NCBI GenBank assembly: GCA_039714315.1
Contig: JBDLJM010000018.1
Location: 1-33,586 of the forward strand
Direction of reading: 5' to 3'
DNA length: 33,586 bases
From: Bacteroidota bacterium
Lineage (GTDB): Bacteria > Bacteroidota > Bacteroidia > Flavobacteriales > JADGDT01
Shown here: piece by piece, positions 16,988 through 33,586 of the stretch
Layout: each line of letters opens with the position of its first letter
Numbering within the stretch: the stretch's first letter is position 1
Made by a program: the position numbers and the translations under genes
Notes under the pieces: generated by a model
Told to the model about the DNA's origin: nothing
What the model saw: the letters and a program-made list of their open reading frames with translations, nothing else
Database searches by the model: none

Positions 16988-19240
16988 TTAGTCAACGTTA
17001 TCGTGTAAAAATGAATTATTTGATCTTATTACATTATCATCATCACTATTCCTTAGGGAATAACGTGAATTATTATTCTGATTCGATGAAGACGTAACAT
17101 CTAATCCGGCTCTAATATATGCCGGCTGCTTTTCTAAATCATCGATCGCTGTTGGATTTGTAGCTTTAAAACGATGATTAAACCTTCTTAATCTTTCCTG
17201 TCTTTGTTTCCTGATTTCATCCTGTTTCGAAAGAGGAACATCAGTTGGATCGAACGACTCTTCTAGCAATTCATCTGCTTCTGTTCTTCCTTCAACATTC
17301 TTAATTGGTTGTTCCGTTGCAACCTGAGCTTCTACCGATTTCTTAACAATTTCAATTTTTAATTCAGGTTCAGGCTCCACCTCAACTTTTTCTACAGAGC
17401 TTTGTACACTTGCGATTTCTTCAACCGGCTTTGCTCTTTGTATTCTGGTTTCAAGCTCTGCATAATCGTCTAAATTATAACGTTTTGACCCATCAGAAAA
17501 CACCTCTGCTTTTTTTGACTGAGAAACTTCAGTAACATTTGAAACTTCAGGTACATTAGCAACATCTGACACTTCATGGGCATCAGGAGATTCAACAGCT
17601 TCTGAATGGATATAAGGCAGATCATTGATTATTTCCTCTTCAAAATCTTCAAGTCTGTGAACTACCTTTTTCTCGAAGACTTCTTCAATTACTTCTTCTT
17701 CATAATCATCTTCAATCACTTCTGTTTCTATCTCCTCATCACTATCCATCGGTTCGAAATCAAACTCAATAGTTGTTTGAGAGTCACCAACTACTTCTTC
17801 CGAAATATTTACATCAGAAACAATCGTATTAATTACAATTTCCTCATCAGCAATATCCATTATACTATTTTGCTGATTTTCGTCTGTCGACGACTCTATA
17901 CTTTGCTCTTGTATGTCAGACTGAATCTGTTTGTCTTCAATTTGTACAGGAGTTTCTTCAATAATATTTTCCTCTATTAAAACCGATTCCTCAACAGGTG
18001 GTGTAATTTCTTGTCTTTCTACTTTCACCTCATGCTCAATCGTTTTTGGAGCCTCATTTACTACAGGTTTTACAACAGGCTTTTCCTCAACTTCCTCTTC
18101 TAACAGATGAATAACCTTCTTATTTTCAACAACCTCTTGAATCTCCTCTTTTTTCTCGTGAACTACGGGAGCTTTTGGAGGCGGAACAGCCTTTCTTTTA
18201 GGCTTGACATCTTCGATCAGTTTATGAACCGTTTTCGAAGGTTCCTTCTCTATATGGGTATCCTGTTGCTCAGTAGAAAAACCTGTGGCAACAACTGTCA
18301 CACTGATACTGTCTCCTAATGAGGCATCATCTCCCACACCCATAATTATATCAGAACTTCCCCCGGATTCAATTTGAATATAATCATTGATTTCTCCTAT
18401 TTCGTCCAAAGTAATTTCTAATTCTCCCGAAACTATAAGAAGTAATACTTTTTTTGCCCCGGTAATTTTATTGTCATTCAATAGTGGTGAATCCAGTGCT
18501 TTAGTAATTGCATCAATAGCTCTATTATCTCCAGATGCTTCTGCCGACCCCATTATGGCAGTTCCACTTTTTGCCAATACAGTTTTGGCATCACGCAAGT
18601 CAATGTTCATACCATAGTGATTGGTAATTACCTGCGAAATACCCTTGGCTGCAGTAGCCAAAACTTCATCAGCCTTAGAGAAACCGGCTTTAAAGCCTAA
18701 ATTTCCATATATTTCCCTTAGCTTACCATTATTAATGACAATAAGGGAGTCCACATAACCACGTAACTCTTCAACACCTGCCTGAGCCTGAGCCAGCCTT
18801 TTCTGTCCCTCGAACTGGAAAGGAATAGTTACGATCCCCACAGTAAGAATTCCCAATTTTGAAGCAAGTTTAGCTATAACAGGAGCAGCTCCCGTACCTG
18901 TACCTCCACCCATTCCGGCAGTAAGAAAAACCATTCTCGTGTTCGTATTGAACATAGCCTCTATTTCCTCCAGACTCTCCTGAGCAGATTGTCCTCCAAT
19001 TTCAGGATCGGCACCTGCACCTAACCCCTCAGTAAGAGTCACACCTAATTGAATTTTATTAGGAACCGGACTATTTTGCAAGGCTTGTGAATCTGTATTA
19101 CAAACTACAAAATCCACACCGTTAAACCCTTGGTTATACATGTAATTAACCGCATTACTACCGCCACCACCAACGCCAATAACCTTAATCACGTTGGATC
19201 TATTTTTAGGCAGATCAAAGGAAATGTTGTTTTGATTCAT
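16988..19240 (-). CDS. ftsZ: cell division GTPase FtsZ with very long acidic linker
   Basis: The tubulin-like GTPase that forms the Z-ring. Residues about 12-322 are the conserved core with the signature GGGTGTGAA at 111-119 and the T7-loop NIDLRD at 212-217. Residues about 323-699 are a low-complexity linker rich in Glu, Val, Asp and Pro, with local repeats such as EVSDVANVPEVSNVTEVS. The conserved C-terminal peptide, KQPAYIRAG near 704-712, is followed by another 35 or so Asn/Ser/Asp-rich residues ending FLHDNVD. At 750 residues it is nearly twice the usual 380-400. The gene lies 55 bases after ftsA. The reading frame is uninterrupted, so the length is genuine unless the assembly is wrong. 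Confidence 0.97.
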   Translation of the reverse strand: MNQNNISFDLPKNRSNVIKVIGVGGGGSNAVNYMYNQGFNGVDFVVCNTDSQALQNSPVPNKIQLGVTLTEGLGAGADPEIGGQSAQESLEEIEAMFNTNTRMVFLTAGMGGGTGTGAAPVIAKLASKLGILTVGIVTIPFQFEGQKRLAQAQAGVEELRGYVDSLIVINNGKLREIYGNLGFKAGFSKADEVLATAAKGISQVITNHYGMNIDLRDAKTVLAKSGTAIMGSAEASGDNRAIDAITKALDSPLLNDNKITGAKKVLLLIVSGELEITLDEIGEINDYIQIESGGSSDIIMGVGDDASLGDSISVTVVATGFSTEQQDTHIEKEPSKTVHKLIEDVKPKRKAVPPPKAPVVHEKKEEIQEVVENKKVIHLLEEEVEEKPVVKPVVNEAPKTIEHEVKVERQEITPPVEESVLIEENIIEETPVQIEDKQIQSDIQEQSIESSTDENQQNSIMDIADEEIVINTIVSDVNISEEVVGDSQTTIEFDFEPMDSDEEIETEVIEDDYEEEVIEEVFEKKVVHRLEDFEEEIINDLPYIHSEAVESPDAHEVSDVANVPEVSNVTEVSQSKKAEVFSDGSKRYNLDDYAELETRIQRAKPVEEIASVQSSVEKVEVEPEPELKIEIVKKSVEAQVATEQPIKNVEGRTEADELLEESFDPTDVPLSKQDEIRKQRQERLRRFNHRFKATNPTAIDDLEKQPAYIRAGLDVTSSSNQNNNSRYSLRNSDDDNVIRSNNSFLHDNVD

Positions 19241-27677: not shown

Positions 27678-29141
27678 CTACTTATTTAACAGGGTTAATA
27701 TTTTTTTCGCTTTTTCAAAATCATCAAAGTCGTATTTCACTCCCATGATATCCTGGTATGTTTCATGGCCTTTACCGGCGATAAGTATAATATCGCCTTT
27801 ATCTGCCTCCTGACATGCCGCTTTAATTCCTTGTTCTCTATCAACAATCGATACTGTTTTGTGATAGTGTTCTGCAGGAACACCGGCTTCCATATCAGAA
27901 ATAATATCCTCGGGTTTTTCGGTACGTGGATTATCTGAAGTAAGAACTACTTTATTAGAAAAATCACAGGAAATTTTTGCCATCTTCGGACGCTTCCCTT
28001 TATCTCTATCTCCGCCACAGCCAACAACTGTAATTAATTTTTCATTTCCTGTCCTTATCTCTCCAATCGTTTCCAGTACATTTTTCAAAGCATCGGGAGT
28101 ATGGGCATAATCAACCACGGTAATAATTCCCTTTTCCGAAGAAAAATGATCAAAACGACCTGTCACATTTTCTAAACGACTCATCGCTTTTAATACTTCA
28201 TCTTCATCCTCTCCAAGTTCAACCGAAACAGAGTAAATAGCTAAAAGGTTATATGCGTTAAACTTCCCTATTAATTTAGTCCAAATCTCCTTATTCCCAA
28301 TTCTCAACAACATCCCGCTAAAGTGACTTTCCAGTAATCTAACCTTATAATCACTCACTGATTTCATTGAATAGCTGAGCTTTTTAGCTTTTGTATTCTG
28401 AAGCATTACCATTCCGTTTTTATCATCAGAATTAGTTATGGCAAATGCTGTTTTAGGCAAATCATCAAAAAAACGTTTCTTAACGTTTATATATTCTTTA
28501 AATGTTTTATGATAATCAAGATGATCGTGGGTAATATTTGTAAAAGCGCCTCCTGCGAAATGCAGTCCGGCAATTCTGCGTTGGTCAACACCATGAGAGC
28601 TCACTTCCATAAAGCAGTGCGATACTCCTGCTTCGGCCATCTGTTGCAAATATTTATTTAATGTTACCGGATCCGGAGTTGTATGTGTAGAAACAATCTC
28701 TTCATCACCAGCCATAATCCTGATCGTTGAAAACAATCCCGCTTTTTTTCCCAGTAATCCAAAAAGCGTATATAACTGTGTAGCGATAGTAGTTTTACCG
28801 TTTGTTCCTGTAACTCCAACTAATTTAAGTTTTGACGAAGGATTATCATAAAAGTTTGAAGCTATTACTCCTAATGCCTCCTTGCTATCTCCCACCTTTA
28901 CCCAGGCAACACTATCATTATCAACATCTACATTATTTTGATATACAATTGCCTTTGCTCCAAGTTCTATAGCTTTTGATATATATTTATGCCCATCAAC
29001 TGCCACTCCGCTAATAGCCACAAAAACACTTCCGTTTGTCACTTTTCTGGAATCGAATTCAACAGAAGTAATTTCTGCGGAACTATTTCCGGAAAGCTCC
29101 AAAACATTTATGCCCCCAAGTATTTTGTTTAACACCCTCAT
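27678..29141 (-). CDS. murE: UDP-MurNAc-tripeptide synthetase, meso-DAP type
   Basis: Adds the third residue of the stem peptide. The P-loop TGTNGKTT lies near residues 111-118, [12 protein letters not shown] near 200, and DNPRTE near 403-408. The DNPR motif marks specificity for meso-diaminopimelate over lysine, so the wall is predicted to be DAP-type. I chose the ATG at 29141, whose A is shared with the TGA stop of ftsI (TGATG), a classic coupled start. An in-frame GTG at 29144 is possible and would add one residue. The product is 487 residues. Confidence 0.96.
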
Positions 29142-31123
29142 CACATCAATACTAAATTAACTAAGTTGTTCTTCTTTACTCTTCTTCCAGCCGGTATAGA
29201 TTGTTTAACAACCCTGCCTGAACCTCTCATTCTAACTTTCAGTCCAATATTTTCCAACATTGATAACGCATCCATTGCTGGAACACCTTTCACATTTGGC
29301 ATCAGACCTTTTCGAACCTCCGAAGCCTTTGATCCTAAAACTATCTGATTTCTCAACTCTTCATCACTCAAAGCCGGTATAATATTTTCTACTTCCGGTC
29401 CCTCGTGATAAATTTTAACTGCTATCTCCTTAAATACCGGTGCAGCAACCTGAGCACCGTAATAACCTTTACTCTTGTCCGGTTTATTAACTACAACAAT
29501 CATTGAGTACTTAGGATCTTTTGCAGGAAAATATCCGACAAATGAAGAACTATAACCCATATTCTTCTTTCCTTCCCAGTAATTTAACTGGGTAGTTCCG
29601 GTTTTTCCGGCAATTTGCAGGTTATCCATTTTCAAACCTTTTCCTGTTCCATTTTCCACAACTCCTTCCAGCATATCCCGAGCTATTTTCACTGTACTTT
29701 CAGAACAAATTCTCGAGTTCAGAACTTCGGTATGCACAGTAGAAATCACTCCCTCATCATCTCTTATTTTCGAAATAAAATACGGTTTAACTTCTACCCC
29801 GTCATTTGCAATTGCATTATAATAAGTAAGTATTTGAAGTGGTGTCAAATGAACCCCATAACCATAAGCCATCCAGGCTAAACTAAGTCCTGACCAGTTA
29901 TCGGCCTGAGGATTTGGAATTACAGGCGAACCTTCTCCCTTAATATTTAATCCAATTTTCTTATCAAGACCCATCGAATAAAGTCTGTTCAAAAATCTGG
30001 TTGGGTTTGTCTTATAGTTTTCATATATAATTTTAGCCATTCCTACATTTGATGATTCTTCGAACACCTTCTTTACTGACACCTTTCCAAAACCACCTCT
30101 ATGTGAATCTCTAATATATTTCCCATAGATCTTATGCTTCCCGTTTCCTGTATCTATCACCTTAGAGGTATCTACAACTCCATCTTCGAGAGCGGCTATT
30201 AAAGCCGGAAGCTTAAAGGTTGATCCGGGCTCAGAAGATTCGTAAACTGCGTAATTTACTTTTTCGTAATATTTACCTTTTTCTGTACGTCCAAGGTTTA
30301 CAATCCCTTTGATCTTACCGGTATTAACTTCCATTACTACAACAGTACCGTGGTCGGCTTTAAACTCTTCCAATTGCCTTAATAAAGCATAATGTGCCAC
30401 ATCCTGTATATGCACATCTATCGTAGAATATATATCTGCCCCATCCTCAGGTTCTATTTCATTTTTATCACTCAGAGGTTTCCATGATCCTTTTTGAAGT
30501 TTTACACTCAAAACACTTCCATCTCTACCCGACAGATATCTGGAATATGCTCCTTCGAGACCTACCGATAAATAATCTTTTTCGTATCCAATAGTCCGTT
30601 CGGCAACTTTTCCCAAAGGATGTTCCCTAACCATTTTTTCCTCAACAACAAGTCCGCCTTTAAACCTTCCTTTATTAAGAATTGGAAAACCTTTAAACCT
30701 TTGATATTGATCAAAGGTTAAATTTTTCTTTATTCTAAAATATTTTTTACCCTTCTCTCGTGCTTTGGTAATCTTGTCGGCATAATAATATCTTGATGGC
30801 GCTCCAAACAAACTGTGAATTGAGTCTGACAGATCGTCTATATTTTCATTGAATAATTTTGTAGAAGGAACAGTAGGATCTATTGCTACAGTAAATGTGG
30901 TGACTGATGTTGCCAACAAATTCCCGTCTTCTGCATAAATATTTCCACGTCGGGCCTTAATTACATGAGGTCTTATGGTTCTTTTCGAAGCTAACTCCCT
31001 GTAATGCTTACCATCAACATATTGAATCTGGAATATTTTCCCAAACACAGCAAAAAACACCAATAAAAGCAAAGCTAGAATCAGGTATAATCTGTTTAGT
31101 ATGTTTCTTCTATTTTTTTCCAA
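29141..31123 (-). CDS. ftsI: division-specific penicillin-binding protein (FtsI/PBP3) with C-terminal PASTA domain
   Basis: Septal DD-transpeptidase that cross-links glycan strands made by FtsW. The 660-residue class B PBP has one N-terminal membrane helix (about 11-31), the dimerisation/pedestal region with RRGNIYAEDG, and a transpeptidase domain with active-site Ser301 in STFK (301-304), SSN (357-359) and KTG (507-509). The last 60 or so residues (LMPNVKGVPAMDALSMLEN...) form one PASTA domain, a fold that binds peptidoglycan or beta-lactams in other PBPs. It starts one base after the ftsL stop and its TGA overlaps the murE ATG. Confidence 0.96.
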   Translation of the reverse strand: MEKNRRNILNRLYLILALLLLVFFAVFGKIFQIQYVDGKHYRELASKRTIRPHVIKARRGNIYAEDGNLLATSVTTFTVAIDPTVPSTKLFNENIDDLSDSIHSLFGAPSRYYYADKITKAREKGKKYFRIKKNLTFDQYQRFKGFPILNKGRFKGGLVVEEKMVREHPLGKVAERTIGYEKDYLSVGLEGAYSRYLSGRDGSVLSVKLQKGSWKPLSDKNEIEPEDGADIYSTIDVHIQDVAHYALLRQLEEFKADHGTVVVMEVNTGKIKGIVNLGRTEKGKYYEKVNYAVYESSEPGSTFKLPALIAALEDGVVDTSKVIDTGNGKHKIYGKYIRDSHRGGFGKVSVKKVFEESSNVGMAKIIYENYKTNPTRFLNRLYSMGLDKKIGLNIKGEGSPVIPNPQADNWSGLSLAWMAYGYGVHLTPLQILTYYNAIANDGVEVKPYFISKIRDDEGVISTVHTEVLNSRICSESTVKIARDMLEGVVENGTGKGLKMDNLQIAGKTGTTQLNYWEGKKNMGYSSSFVGYFPAKDPKYSMIVVVNKPDKSKGYYGAQVAAPVFKEIAVKIYHEGPEVENIIPALSDEELRNQIVLGSKASEVRKGLMPNVKGVPAMDALSMLENIGLKVRMRGSGRVVKQSIPAGRRVKKNNLVNLVLM

Positions 31124-31124
31124 T

Positions 31125-31448
31125 TCAATTATTATTTACTTTTATTACATGTGGTGGTGTTGTAGATTGCTCCAAGCCAATTTTTCTCACTTTTTCCTGA
31201 AGATTTGATCCCATTCTCGAATTCATCAGCTGCGTTCTTACATCTACAAATTCCGACTTCAACTCTCTAACTTCTTTCTGAAGTTTCGAAATCTCATATA
31301 CTTTTTCGTCAGCAGAATGAGAACTTACTATTGTTATCAGGATAAGCAAGACAGCAAAGGCTATTACTTTCCAGTTTTCAAGAAGTACATCAGTGTCAAA
31401 CAGGTTACCTCTTACAATAGTTCCTATGTTTTTGGACTTCTTTTCCAT
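31125..31448 (-). CDS. ftsL: FtsL-like bitopic division protein
   Basis: A 107-residue protein with a short cytoplasmic tail, one membrane helix (about 28-44, KVIAFAVLLILITIVSS) and a periplasmic coiled coil (about 50-85, DEKVYEISKLQKEVRELKSEFVDVRTQL). Topology, size and position between rsmH and ftsI identify it as the FtsL equivalent that joins FtsQ and FtsI/FtsW. Sequence similarity to proteobacterial FtsL is minimal, as is normal. Its ATG overlaps the rsmH stop codon by one base (TAATG). Confidence 0.88.
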   Translation of the reverse strand: MEKKSKNIGTIVRGNLFDTDVLLENWKVIAFAVLLILITIVSSHSADEKVYEISKLQKEVRELKSEFVDVRTQLMNSRMGSNLQEKVRKIGLEQSTTPPHVIKVNNN

Positions 31449-32353
31449 TATAGTTTTTTCGCAATTCTCAATTTTGCACTTCTCGCTCTGCTGTTTCTTT
31501 CAACCTCCTCTTCGGTTGGGACTATTACTTTTCTGTTAACAGCTTTAAAAGGAACATCCACATTCCCATAAATATCCTTTTCAGGTTCTCCCCTAAAAAG
31601 TCCGGTTTTAATATATCGTTTTACCAGCCTGTCTTCTAATGAGTGATAAGAAATTACAACTAATCTCCCATCAGGATTCAAAATTTCATTACTCGATTCG
31701 AGGAAGGCCTTTAAAACCCCCATTTCATCATTAACTTCAATTCTTATTGCCTGAAACATCTGAGCATAAAACTTATTTTCCCTGTTTCGAGGTGCTAAAT
31801 CTTTCGTTAATTCTTTTAGATCGCCATTAGTTTCAATTGGCTTATCACTACGTGAATCCACAATCCTGTTTGCAACTTTCCAGGCATTTTTAAGCTCCCC
31901 GAAATCTCTGAATATCCTGCTCAAATCCTCTACATCATAATCATTCACAATCTCATAAGCTGAGATATTTGATTTTTGATTCATTCTCATATCCAACCTG
32001 CCATCGAAACGAGTAGAAAACCCCCGCTCGGCAACATCGAATTGATGAGAACTAACACCCAAATCTGCGAGAATCCCATCGACCTTTTTCACTCCGTGAA
32101 GTCTTAAATAATTCTTCAGATGCCTGAAGTTTACGTTAATAAGCTCAAAACGAGAATCGTCTATCTTATTTTCTAAAGCATCTTTATCCTGATCGAAAGC
32201 AAATAGCTTTCCTTTTTCTCCAAGATGAGAAATAATTCCACGCGAATGACCACCTCCTCCAAAAGTAACATCCACATAAATACCATTTTCCTTAATCGCC
32301 AGGCCTTCGATACACTCGTCGAAAAGCACAGGCACATGGTACTCCATTGCCAT
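31448..32353 (-). CDS. rsmH: 16S rRNA (cytosine-1402-N4)-methyltransferase
   Basis: Methylates N4 of C1402 in the 16S rRNA decoding centre using S-adenosylmethionine (also called MraW). The 301-residue enzyme has the SAM motif DVTFGGGGHS near residue 28, ADLGVSSHQFD and GRLDMRM in the centre, ISYHSLEDRLVK near 235 and the C-terminal NSRARSAKLR. Met3 is an alternative start. The gene follows mraZ by 52 bases and its stop overlaps the ftsL start. Confidence 0.97.
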   Translation of the reverse strand: MAMEYHVPVLFDECIEGLAIKENGIYVDVTFGGGGHSRGIISHLGEKGKLFAFDQDKDALENKIDDSRFELINVNFRHLKNYLRLHGVKKVDGILADLGVSSHQFDVAERGFSTRFDGRLDMRMNQKSNISAYEIVNDYDVEDLSRIFRDFGELKNAWKVANRIVDSRSDKPIETNGDLKELTKDLAPRNRENKFYAQMFQAIRIEVNDEMGVLKAFLESSNEILNPDGRLVVISYHSLEDRLVKRYIKTGLFRGEPEKDIYGNVDVPFKAVNRKVIVPTEEEVERNSRARSAKLRIAKKL

Positions 32354-32405: not shown

Positions 32406-32873
32406 CTACTGAAGTAACTCTTCAAAATCCCCCATTACTTCTTCTGCTAAATCTCCAAAATCCTCTTCAGGATTATTAATCACACTTTCGTAGCGATCTT
32501 TATCCCAAACCTCAATAATGTTGTTGACTGTAACAGTAAGTACAACTTCCTTTTCTATCCCTGCAAAACTCACAAGATCTTTCGTTATCAACATTCGCCC
32601 TGTCCCATCCAATTCAATCGACTTTACCCCTGCTGTAAATTGACGTATAAAACTTGCTACTTTCCTCTGAAAACGATTTTTCTTGTTTAATTTGCTCATC
32701 ACAGCGTTCCATTCTGCCATTGTATACAGTTCCAAACACTGCTCAAAAACTGATCGTTTCAATACGAATCCATCACCCAAATACGGAGCTAACTGCTTCT
32801 TTAACTGAGCAGGTAGCAACAAGCGTCCTTTGGCGTCGATCTTACATTCGTATGTTCCGAACAGATTTGTCAT
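32406..32873 (-). CDS. mraZ: transcriptional regulator MraZ
   Basis: First gene of the dcw operon, encoding a ring-forming DNA-binding protein that controls its own operon. The 155-residue product has two SpoVT-AbrB-like domains, marked by KIDAKGRLLLPA (about 11-22) and IELDGTGRMLIT (about 86-97), and an acidic tail (about 133-155) a little longer than usual. The start at 32873 lies 37 bases downstream of four AAAGTG repeats that match the known MraZ recognition pattern, which supports autoregulation. Confidence 0.96.
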   Translation of the reverse strand: MTNLFGTYECKIDAKGRLLLPAQLKKQLAPYLGDGFVLKRSVFEQCLELYTMAEWNAVMSKLNKKNRFQRKVASFIRQFTAGVKSIELDGTGRMLITKDLVSFAGIEKEVVLTVTVNNIIEVWDKDRYESVINNPEEDFGDLAEEVMGDFEELLQ

Positions 32874-32893: not shown

Positions 32894-32901
32894 CAAATAT
32901 A
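32894..32901 (-). promoter_or_regulatory. putative -7 element of the dcw operon promoter
   Basis: TATATTTG on the minus strand, a TAnnTTTG match 20 bases upstream of the mraZ start, implying a leader of about 15 bases. The -33 position, 19 bases further upstream, falls at 32921-32924, inside the MraZ-box repeats, and has no TTTG. Confidence 0.55.
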
Positions 32902-32910
32902 AGATATTAT

Positions 32911-32950
32911 ACTACACTTTTTTACACTTTACCCCACTTTTTACCACTTT
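32911..32950 (-). promoter_or_regulatory. MraZ box: four AAAGTG decamer repeats
   Basis: On the mraZ coding strand, four consecutive decamers each begin with AAAGTG followed by G or T: AAAGTGGTAA, AAAGTGGGGT, AAAGTGTAAA and AAAGTGTAGT. On the plus strand this is CACTTT ending exactly at 32920, 32930, 32940 and 32950. The arrangement equals the MraZ binding pattern described in Mollicutes (AAAGTG[T/G] plus three bases, repeated). One helical turn per repeat places all sites on the same face of the DNA. The array covers the expected -33 region, so binding should block transcription. Confidence 0.8.
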
Positions 32951-33292
32951 GTTGAAAACTTAATTTAAAAACACTTATAAAGGCCTGTAAAACCTAACAC
33001 TTTCATACACCATGAAAAAAATCGGTTATTAACAATTATTCGGAATTCCACCACCCTTACAACACAATTATTGACTAGACAAATGGCAATTGGGGTAATA
33101 AAAGCATCATGAAAGAATAAACTTACAAACACATATTTATCTTATTGCTACAAATAAGATTACGGATAACACACAAAAAGTATATAACCTTTTATGCCAA
33201 TTAAATTTCAATGTGAAGAGTTTGGTCAAAGTATTATTTTTAATTTAACGAAAAAAAGCATAGCATTTAATAAATGTCTGAAGTTTCCAATC
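32951..33292. other. gene-free AT-rich stretch upstream of the dcw operon
   Basis: No reading frame of credible length or composition is present on either strand. The stretch is very AT-rich and contains one copy of the CCAATTAAATTTCAA motif (33194-33211). No other promoter, RNA gene or hairpin stood out by eye. Confidence 0.6.
33194..33211. repeat. copy 2 of the CCAATTRAATTTCAA dispersed motif
   Basis: ATGCCAATTAAATTTCAA differs from the copy at 16417 by a single base. It lies 290 bases before copy 3. Confidence 0.55.
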
Positions 33293-33470
33293 TCTTTTTT
33301 TTTGGCGCTATTTCCGGCTCTCCGCTATAGCTTTATTTAGCATAGCGGTTCGAAAATTGTATTTCGGGGTCTTCGCTAAGGCTCAGCCGCCAAAATACAT
33401 TTCTCACAAGCTATCCAAAACAAAGGCTGTCGCTTTTATCCGGGCGAACTATATTTCGCTGCTCCGCACC
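33293..33470. repeat. structured, G+C-richer intergenic island with inverted repeats
   Basis: It begins with a run of ten T then GGCGC, and is visibly richer in G+C than its flanks. It holds CCGCTAT (33322-33328) facing ATAGCGG (33342-33348), TGTATTT (33358-33364) facing AAATACA (33393-33399), and GGCTCAGCC at 33380-33388. No coding potential is seen. The wording resembles a dispersed intergenic repeat I recall from marine Flavobacteriia (…TCCGCTATA…, …GGCTGxCGCTT…ATCCGGGCG…). That recollection was not checked, and only one copy lies in this window. Confidence 0.45.
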
Positions 33471-33483
33471 TTAAAAACAAATA

Positions 33484-33501
33484 ATACCAATTGAATTTCA
33501 A
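33484..33501. repeat. copy 3 of the CCAATTRAATTTCAA dispersed motif
   Basis: ATACCAATTGAATTTCAA has one base different from the copy at 16417. It is immediately followed by the window-end segment that contains GCGAAGC and CTAACGC. Confidence 0.55.
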
Positions 33502-33545
33502 AATGCTCATTATAATTCGAAATGTAATTCTGTTAGACGAAATAA

Positions 33546-33565
33546 GCGAAGCGATTGGCTAACGC
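33546..33565. repeat. right-end copy of a GCGAAGC...ACGC motif
   Basis: GCGAAGCGATTGGCTAACGC aligns with the left-end motif at 17-35 with a few changes and one indel. It may be the edge of a repeat that broke the assembly. Confidence 0.4.
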
Positions 33566-33586
33566 CGAATCTCACGATTTCATGAA

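Follow-up and report, generated by a model that had tools for sequence, protein, structure and literature searches.

A MraZ operator at the dcw promoter of a Flavobacteriales genome is joined to a conserved DnaA-like box

How the initiation of DNA replication is coupled to cell division is a long-standing question, and the locus described here raises it in a concrete form: which proteins read the repeats in front of the dcw cluster of this bacterium, and what could the element that abuts them contribute? Eraso et al. reportedly located the E. coli MraZ operator at Pmra in 2014, with self-repression of the dcw operon, and Fisunov et al. are said to have described the MraZ binding site of Mollicutes as AAAGTG[T/G] repeats in 2016. 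In the 33,586-nucleotide stretch of DNA analysed here (the window), mraZ is the first gene of a dcw cluster with the order mraZ-rsmH-ftsL-ftsI...ftsZ:

32406..32873, minus strand: mraZ, 155 aa, first dcw gene (Pfam PF02381, E=1.4e-24, two domains)
31448..32353, minus strand: rsmH (mraW), second dcw gene (Pfam PF01795, E=1.1e-95)
31125..31448, minus strand: ftsL (Pfam PF19579 FtsL_2, E=5.5e-32)
29141..31123, minus strand: ftsI-like penicillin-binding protein with PASTA domain (Pfam PF00905, PF03717, PF03793)
16988..19240, minus strand: ftsZ, 750 aa, distal dcw gene (Pfam PF00091, PF12327)

The protein coded by mraZ, whose start codon lies at 32871-32873, carries the MraZ (AbrB-like) domain in two copies, as two stretches of PF02381, and matches solved MraZ chains (E=2.7e-15). 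Its motifs are of the DxxGR type, with DAKGR aligning with DSKGR of E. coli and DGTGR with DGAGR, and they include the N-terminal arginine equivalent to E. coli R15. At the other end of the cluster, the two FtsZ domains of the ftsZ product end near residue 321 and are followed by a very long C-terminal tail. A MraZ match was absent in 8/8 sampled genomes of one family of the phylum (f23: G027, G059, G086, G101, G105, G113, G136 and G144), and the reduced genomes of f46 also gave none; loss of mraZ would allow asking what became of the operator.

Upstream of mraZ, CACTTT occurs four times in exact 10-bp phase (32915-32920, 32925-32930, 32935-32940 and 32945-32950), which on the minus strand reads as four AAAGTG[G/T] boxes. 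The coding strand of mraZ runs AAAGTGGTAA AAAGTGGGGT AAAGTGTAAA AAAGTGTAGT, then 9 nt, TATATTTG and mraZ itself:

32944..32950, minus strand: MraZ box 1, distal, AAAGTGG (from the sequence; kept across the order and the phylum)
32934..32940, minus strand: MraZ box 2, AAAGTGG (from the sequence)
32924..32930, minus strand: MraZ box 3, AAAGTGT (from the sequence)
32914..32920, minus strand: MraZ box 4, promoter-proximal, AAAGTGT (from the sequence)
32894..32901, minus strand: -7 element TATATTTG, of the TAnnTTTG type of Bacteroidota (from the sequence; position conserved)

The initial annotation of this DNA had reported the four copies of CACTTT and their identical 10-base phasing before mraZ, and both the coordinates and the shuffles agree with it, since CACTTTNNNNCACTTT has 3 exact matches in the array and 0.00 in 100 shuffles. 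When up to two mismatches were allowed, AAAGTGN4AAAGTGN4AAAGTG found a single site in the 3.4-Mb genome, the array before mraZ. A MraZ operator calls for at least three GTG-core direct repeats with a 10-bp period upstream of mraZ, and the window has four. A fifth AAAGTG (32998-33003, minus strand) stands some 50 bp further upstream, off the phase of the array, and stray copies upstream were also seen in several relatives. The contig end upstream of mraZ (33200-33586) holds a repeat-like stretch without an ORF of 100 aa, perhaps a dispersed repeat at which the assembly broke off.

Conservation was followed in mraZ upstream regions from 35 genomes of the order, to which 17 others from the class and 58 others from the phylum were added, while phyla beyond Bacteroidota were represented by E. 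coli K-12 and published papers. At least three of four phased GTG[G/T] slots were present in 28/35 regions of the order, 15/17 of the class and 23/58 of the phylum, with dinucleotide-shuffle means of 0.00-0.01 in the three sets, and the lower count in the phylum partly reflects arrays of two boxes. The comparison of mraZ upstream regions in Bacteroidota, which had been proposed as the check for this locus, thus shows a conserved array, and 3-4 WWGTGG boxes before mraZ are widespread across the phylum. The box of the order is WWWGTGG(T/G)AA with a 10-bp period, a consensus in which GTG and the following G/T were fixed by the search and the other columns were free. The count of four repeats holds for the window and its genus mate, but not as a general number, as most relatives in the order have three.

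The array was also said to overlap the dcw promoter, with the expected -33 position inside it, and the position and conservation of TATATTTG support this. As in a Bacteroidota -33/-7 promoter, TATATTTG has the form TAnnTTTG, and the expected -33, 19-21 nt further upstream, would fall between boxes 3 and 4, in their spacer. Measured from the start of the last MraZ box, the -7 element begins 17-19 nt further on in 26 of the 35 order relatives and 27-28 nt further on in another 5/35, in which the last box is degenerate. Because the position of the -7 element is fixed relative to the last box, the -33 would lie inside the array, which makes occlusion the natural mechanism. In the window, no good match to a -33 TTG was found at 19-21 nt from TATATTTG, and TATATTTG is therefore a putative promoter element.

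The AAAGTG repeats of Mollicutes and the TGGG repeats of E. coli had been presented as contrasting recognition codes, and this distinction had to be abandoned. Upstream of mraZ in E. coli K-12, CAGTGGGAAA TTGTGGGGCA AAGTGGGAAT follow the register WWGTGG N4, as the Bacteroidota arrays do, and separate MraZ codes for the two groups were therefore rejected. The recognition code is indeed older than Mollicutes and reaches beyond them, but this is not new, as a GTG core common to B. subtilis, E. coli and mycoplasmas has already been described (PMC7761207, 2020). MraZ binding to repeats of this type has been published (PMC8475190, PMC7761207), and such binding, with an effect on dcw transcription, is known from E. 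coli, mycoplasmas and Burkholderia. The array before mraZ is a MraZ operator, and repression by MraZ through it is, by homology, nearly certain. By itself, the array extends a known rule to Bacteroidota. In the literature searched we found no relevant papers on MraZ in Bacteroidota, and neither MraZ operators nor DnaA-controlled division promoters described in this phylum.

The initial annotation was right about the array and the promoter, but it missed a conserved element at the edge of the region that it covered, directly 5' of box 1:

32950..32958, minus strand: TTTTCAACA, a DnaA-box-like element with one base in common with MraZ box 1

TTTTCAACA is the local form of TTWTYMACA, and the order consensus, TTATYAACA, falls within the same motif. 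TTWTYMACA is present in 33/35 mraZ upstream regions of the order against 3.1 in shuffles, and the narrower TTATYMACA in 31/35 against 0.97 expected. Its distance to box 1 is nearly fixed, at 8 nt in 24/35 and 18 nt in 6/35 (30/35 in total), two spacings that place it in the same helical phase. The composite of element and array, TTWTYMACAAWGTGGNNNAWWGTGG, was found once each in 78 of 298 genomes of the order, and the reversed-pattern control gave zero. In a scan of 84,980 species with the composite pattern, the matches listed were mostly named Flavobacteriales, the names from which we take the order to be Flavobacteriales, and among 84 composite loci examined (80 from the species scan) 82 lay directly upstream of mraZ and 2 were cut by the locus end. 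Measured against the DnaA box TT(A/T)TNCACA, TTTTCAACA has one mismatch, at position 6, where C stands in the classical box and usually A in the dcw element (TTATCAACA, TTATTAACA). Canonical TTWTNCACA boxes occur near the mraZ array in 8/17 regions from sister orders of the class, against 0.98 expected, but with no constant position or strand.

TTWTYMACA also stands at promoters of other replication genes; the gene names used here (nrdB, dnaB, accA, fmt, hup) come from a reading of the proteins and not from database assignment. A 20-bp pair, TTATYMACA-N11-TTATYMACA, has about 40 matches in 148 genomes, and the reversed pattern has 3; of 30 loci with the pair, the fmt-hup interval accounts for 20, the accA-dnaB interval for 5 and the region upstream of nrdB for 1. 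At nrdB promoters TTWTYMACA was present in 26/26 (shuffle mean 4.5), with two or more copies in 21/26 (0.4). The typical arrangement there is TTATTCACA-N11-TTTTTAACA, in which a canonical DnaA box (TTATNCACA) stands beside the variant (loci L350-L375), and these pairs are likely a DnaA-nrd regulatory site in the order. The fmt-linked hup promoters carry TTWTYMACA in 22/24 (shuffle 3.1) and the exact 20-bp pair in 14, whereas the controls, fmt upstream regions (3/42) and random flanks (0/27), were at chance level. The motif is thus present at known DnaA target promoters of the lineage (nrdB 26/26, hup 22/24). Most fmt-hup regions of the order keep TTATYAACA boxes, and the genome of the window itself (G000 C234:2217-2269, L240) has three of them before hup, the gene of the HU protein, two at 20 bp. 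A single element stands at dcw, and mostly pairs stand at hup, dnaB and nrdB. In the interval from accA to the replicative helicase gene dnaB, pairs were seen at L249/L280 (G103), L281, L288, L289 and L291. A search for canonical 20-bp DnaA pairs in the wider class gave 5 matches and 5 in the control, with no signal.

A replication origin was also sought through its boxes. As candidates for oriC, box clusters at dnaA were rejected, none lying next to dnaA in 8 genomes, and clusters of TTATCCACA were absent from three complete genomes. Near the skew minimum of one genome, G118, no convincing box cluster was found; its strand and AT skew switch near 3.43 Mb and not at hup (3.149 Mb) or dnaA, which discards the fmt-hup region as origin, and its only other box cluster near the skew switch overlaps a gene start and does not resemble an oriC. 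A relative in the order has five canonical TTATCCACA boxes clustered in one intergenic region (L246, G095 C1:1941001-1941168), which could be an origin or a site of DnaA titration.

Control by DnaA is published, and classical, for the genes of ribonucleotide reductase (PMC8203912). Because TTWTYMACA stands at hup, dnaB and nrdBA, usually has a canonical partner at nrdB, and ribonucleotide reductase genes and the ftsL promoter region of B. subtilis are published DnaA targets, DnaA is the best candidate for the protein that binds it, and probably the right one as far as sequence can tell. The single element at dcw, against mostly pairs elsewhere, and the shifting place of canonical boxes outside the order count against DnaA, as do the A that replaces C at position 6 and the failure to find a box cluster at an origin in the genomes searched; the last two would suit a reading in which a different cell-cycle regulator, with hup, dnaB and nrdBA among its targets, binds TTWTYMACA, while the MraZ operator stands. 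We regard such a regulator as unlikely, given that nrdB promoters pair the variant with the canonical TTATTCACA/TTATCCACA at the same 20-bp spacing, that nrdBA, dnaB, hup and dcw are the known or expected DnaA set, and that domain IV of DnaA retains RDH in its recognition loop (RDHATVLHA). It is very improbable that the element belongs to the MraZ operator as an accessory, whether a degenerate fifth box or a recognition signal at the end of the array, and that no second protein is involved; the phase lock to box 1 (8 or 18 nt) would fit, but the element lacks a GTG core, and its motif also stands before hup, dnaB and nrdB, at promoters in which we saw no MraZ array. Even though the region around the array is AT-rich with poly-T runs, the chance that the four repeats are an accident or a low-complexity feature of the intergenic region is negligible and was already refuted by conservation in order, class and phylum, besides the zero count in shuffles and the uniqueness of the array in the genome.

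The best reading is that DnaA and MraZ share one composite dcw operator in this order, probably Flavobacteriales. In the model, the four boxes, phased at 10 bp on one face of the DNA, would be bound by a MraZ ring, as homology suggests, and MraZ on the boxes would cover the -33 region upstream of TATATTTG, block RNA polymerase and repress its own operon. DnaA on TTTTCAACA would modulate the same promoter from a site some 57 nt before the -7 element begins; it could activate, contact MraZ or the polymerase, or compete with MraZ at the shared base. The array, the element, their phasing and conservation, and the return of the motif at other promoters are observed, whereas DnaA as the binding protein, the sign of its effect and its interplay with MraZ are the parts of the model that we infer. 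Taken as a whole, the explanation in which the MraZ array represses and TTWTYMACA is a lineage-specific DnaA box acting on the same promoter is probably correct, judged from motif and genome comparisons. Since such boxes would also serve hup, dnaB and nrdBA, dcw would join a DnaA regulon, and it is reasonably likely that Flavobacteriales have a DnaA regulon with the lineage-specific TTWTYMACA box, comprising nrdBA, hup, dnaB and dcw, whose dcw operator integrates DnaA and MraZ inputs. If so, division and wall synthesis would be tied to replication status through this regulon, giving DNA replication a direct line to cell division, and the conserved, phase-locked box at the MraZ operator offers a precise, mutable 9-bp target for studying this coupling. 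The novelty lies in the DnaA-MraZ composite and in the set of boxes at hup, dnaB and nrdBA, not in the array alone.

The comparison with known systems places both halves of the operator. Pmra of E. coli likewise has, immediately before mraZ, direct repeats that share a GTGG core and recur every 10 bp, but its good boxes number three and end in a G-rich TGGG, and in E. coli K-12 no DnaA-like box was seen abutting the array; its boxes are reported downstream of the -10 (PMC7761207), whereas those of the window are upstream of the -7. The Mollicutes site has a nearly identical box and spacing, and occurs once per genome, at mraZ, as with the sole AAAGTG[T/G] array of M. genitalium (PMC8475190). 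Unlike Mollicutes, the window belongs to a walled member of the Bacteroidota, with a full dcw cluster, a TAnnTTTG promoter and a DnaA-like box. The MraZ site of Burkholderia cenocepacia also consists of four 7-nt repeats with 3-nt spacers, and its fragment was bound by MraZ in EMSA, but this site follows the -10 and covers the start of transcription (PMC7761207). For the DnaA half, PMC8203912, citing Goranov et al. 2005, has DnaA of B. subtilis binding the ftsL promoter region, that is, the promoter region of the homologous division operon. Compared with B. subtilis, the box of the window is single, physically joined and phase-locked to the MraZ array, and conserved through the order.
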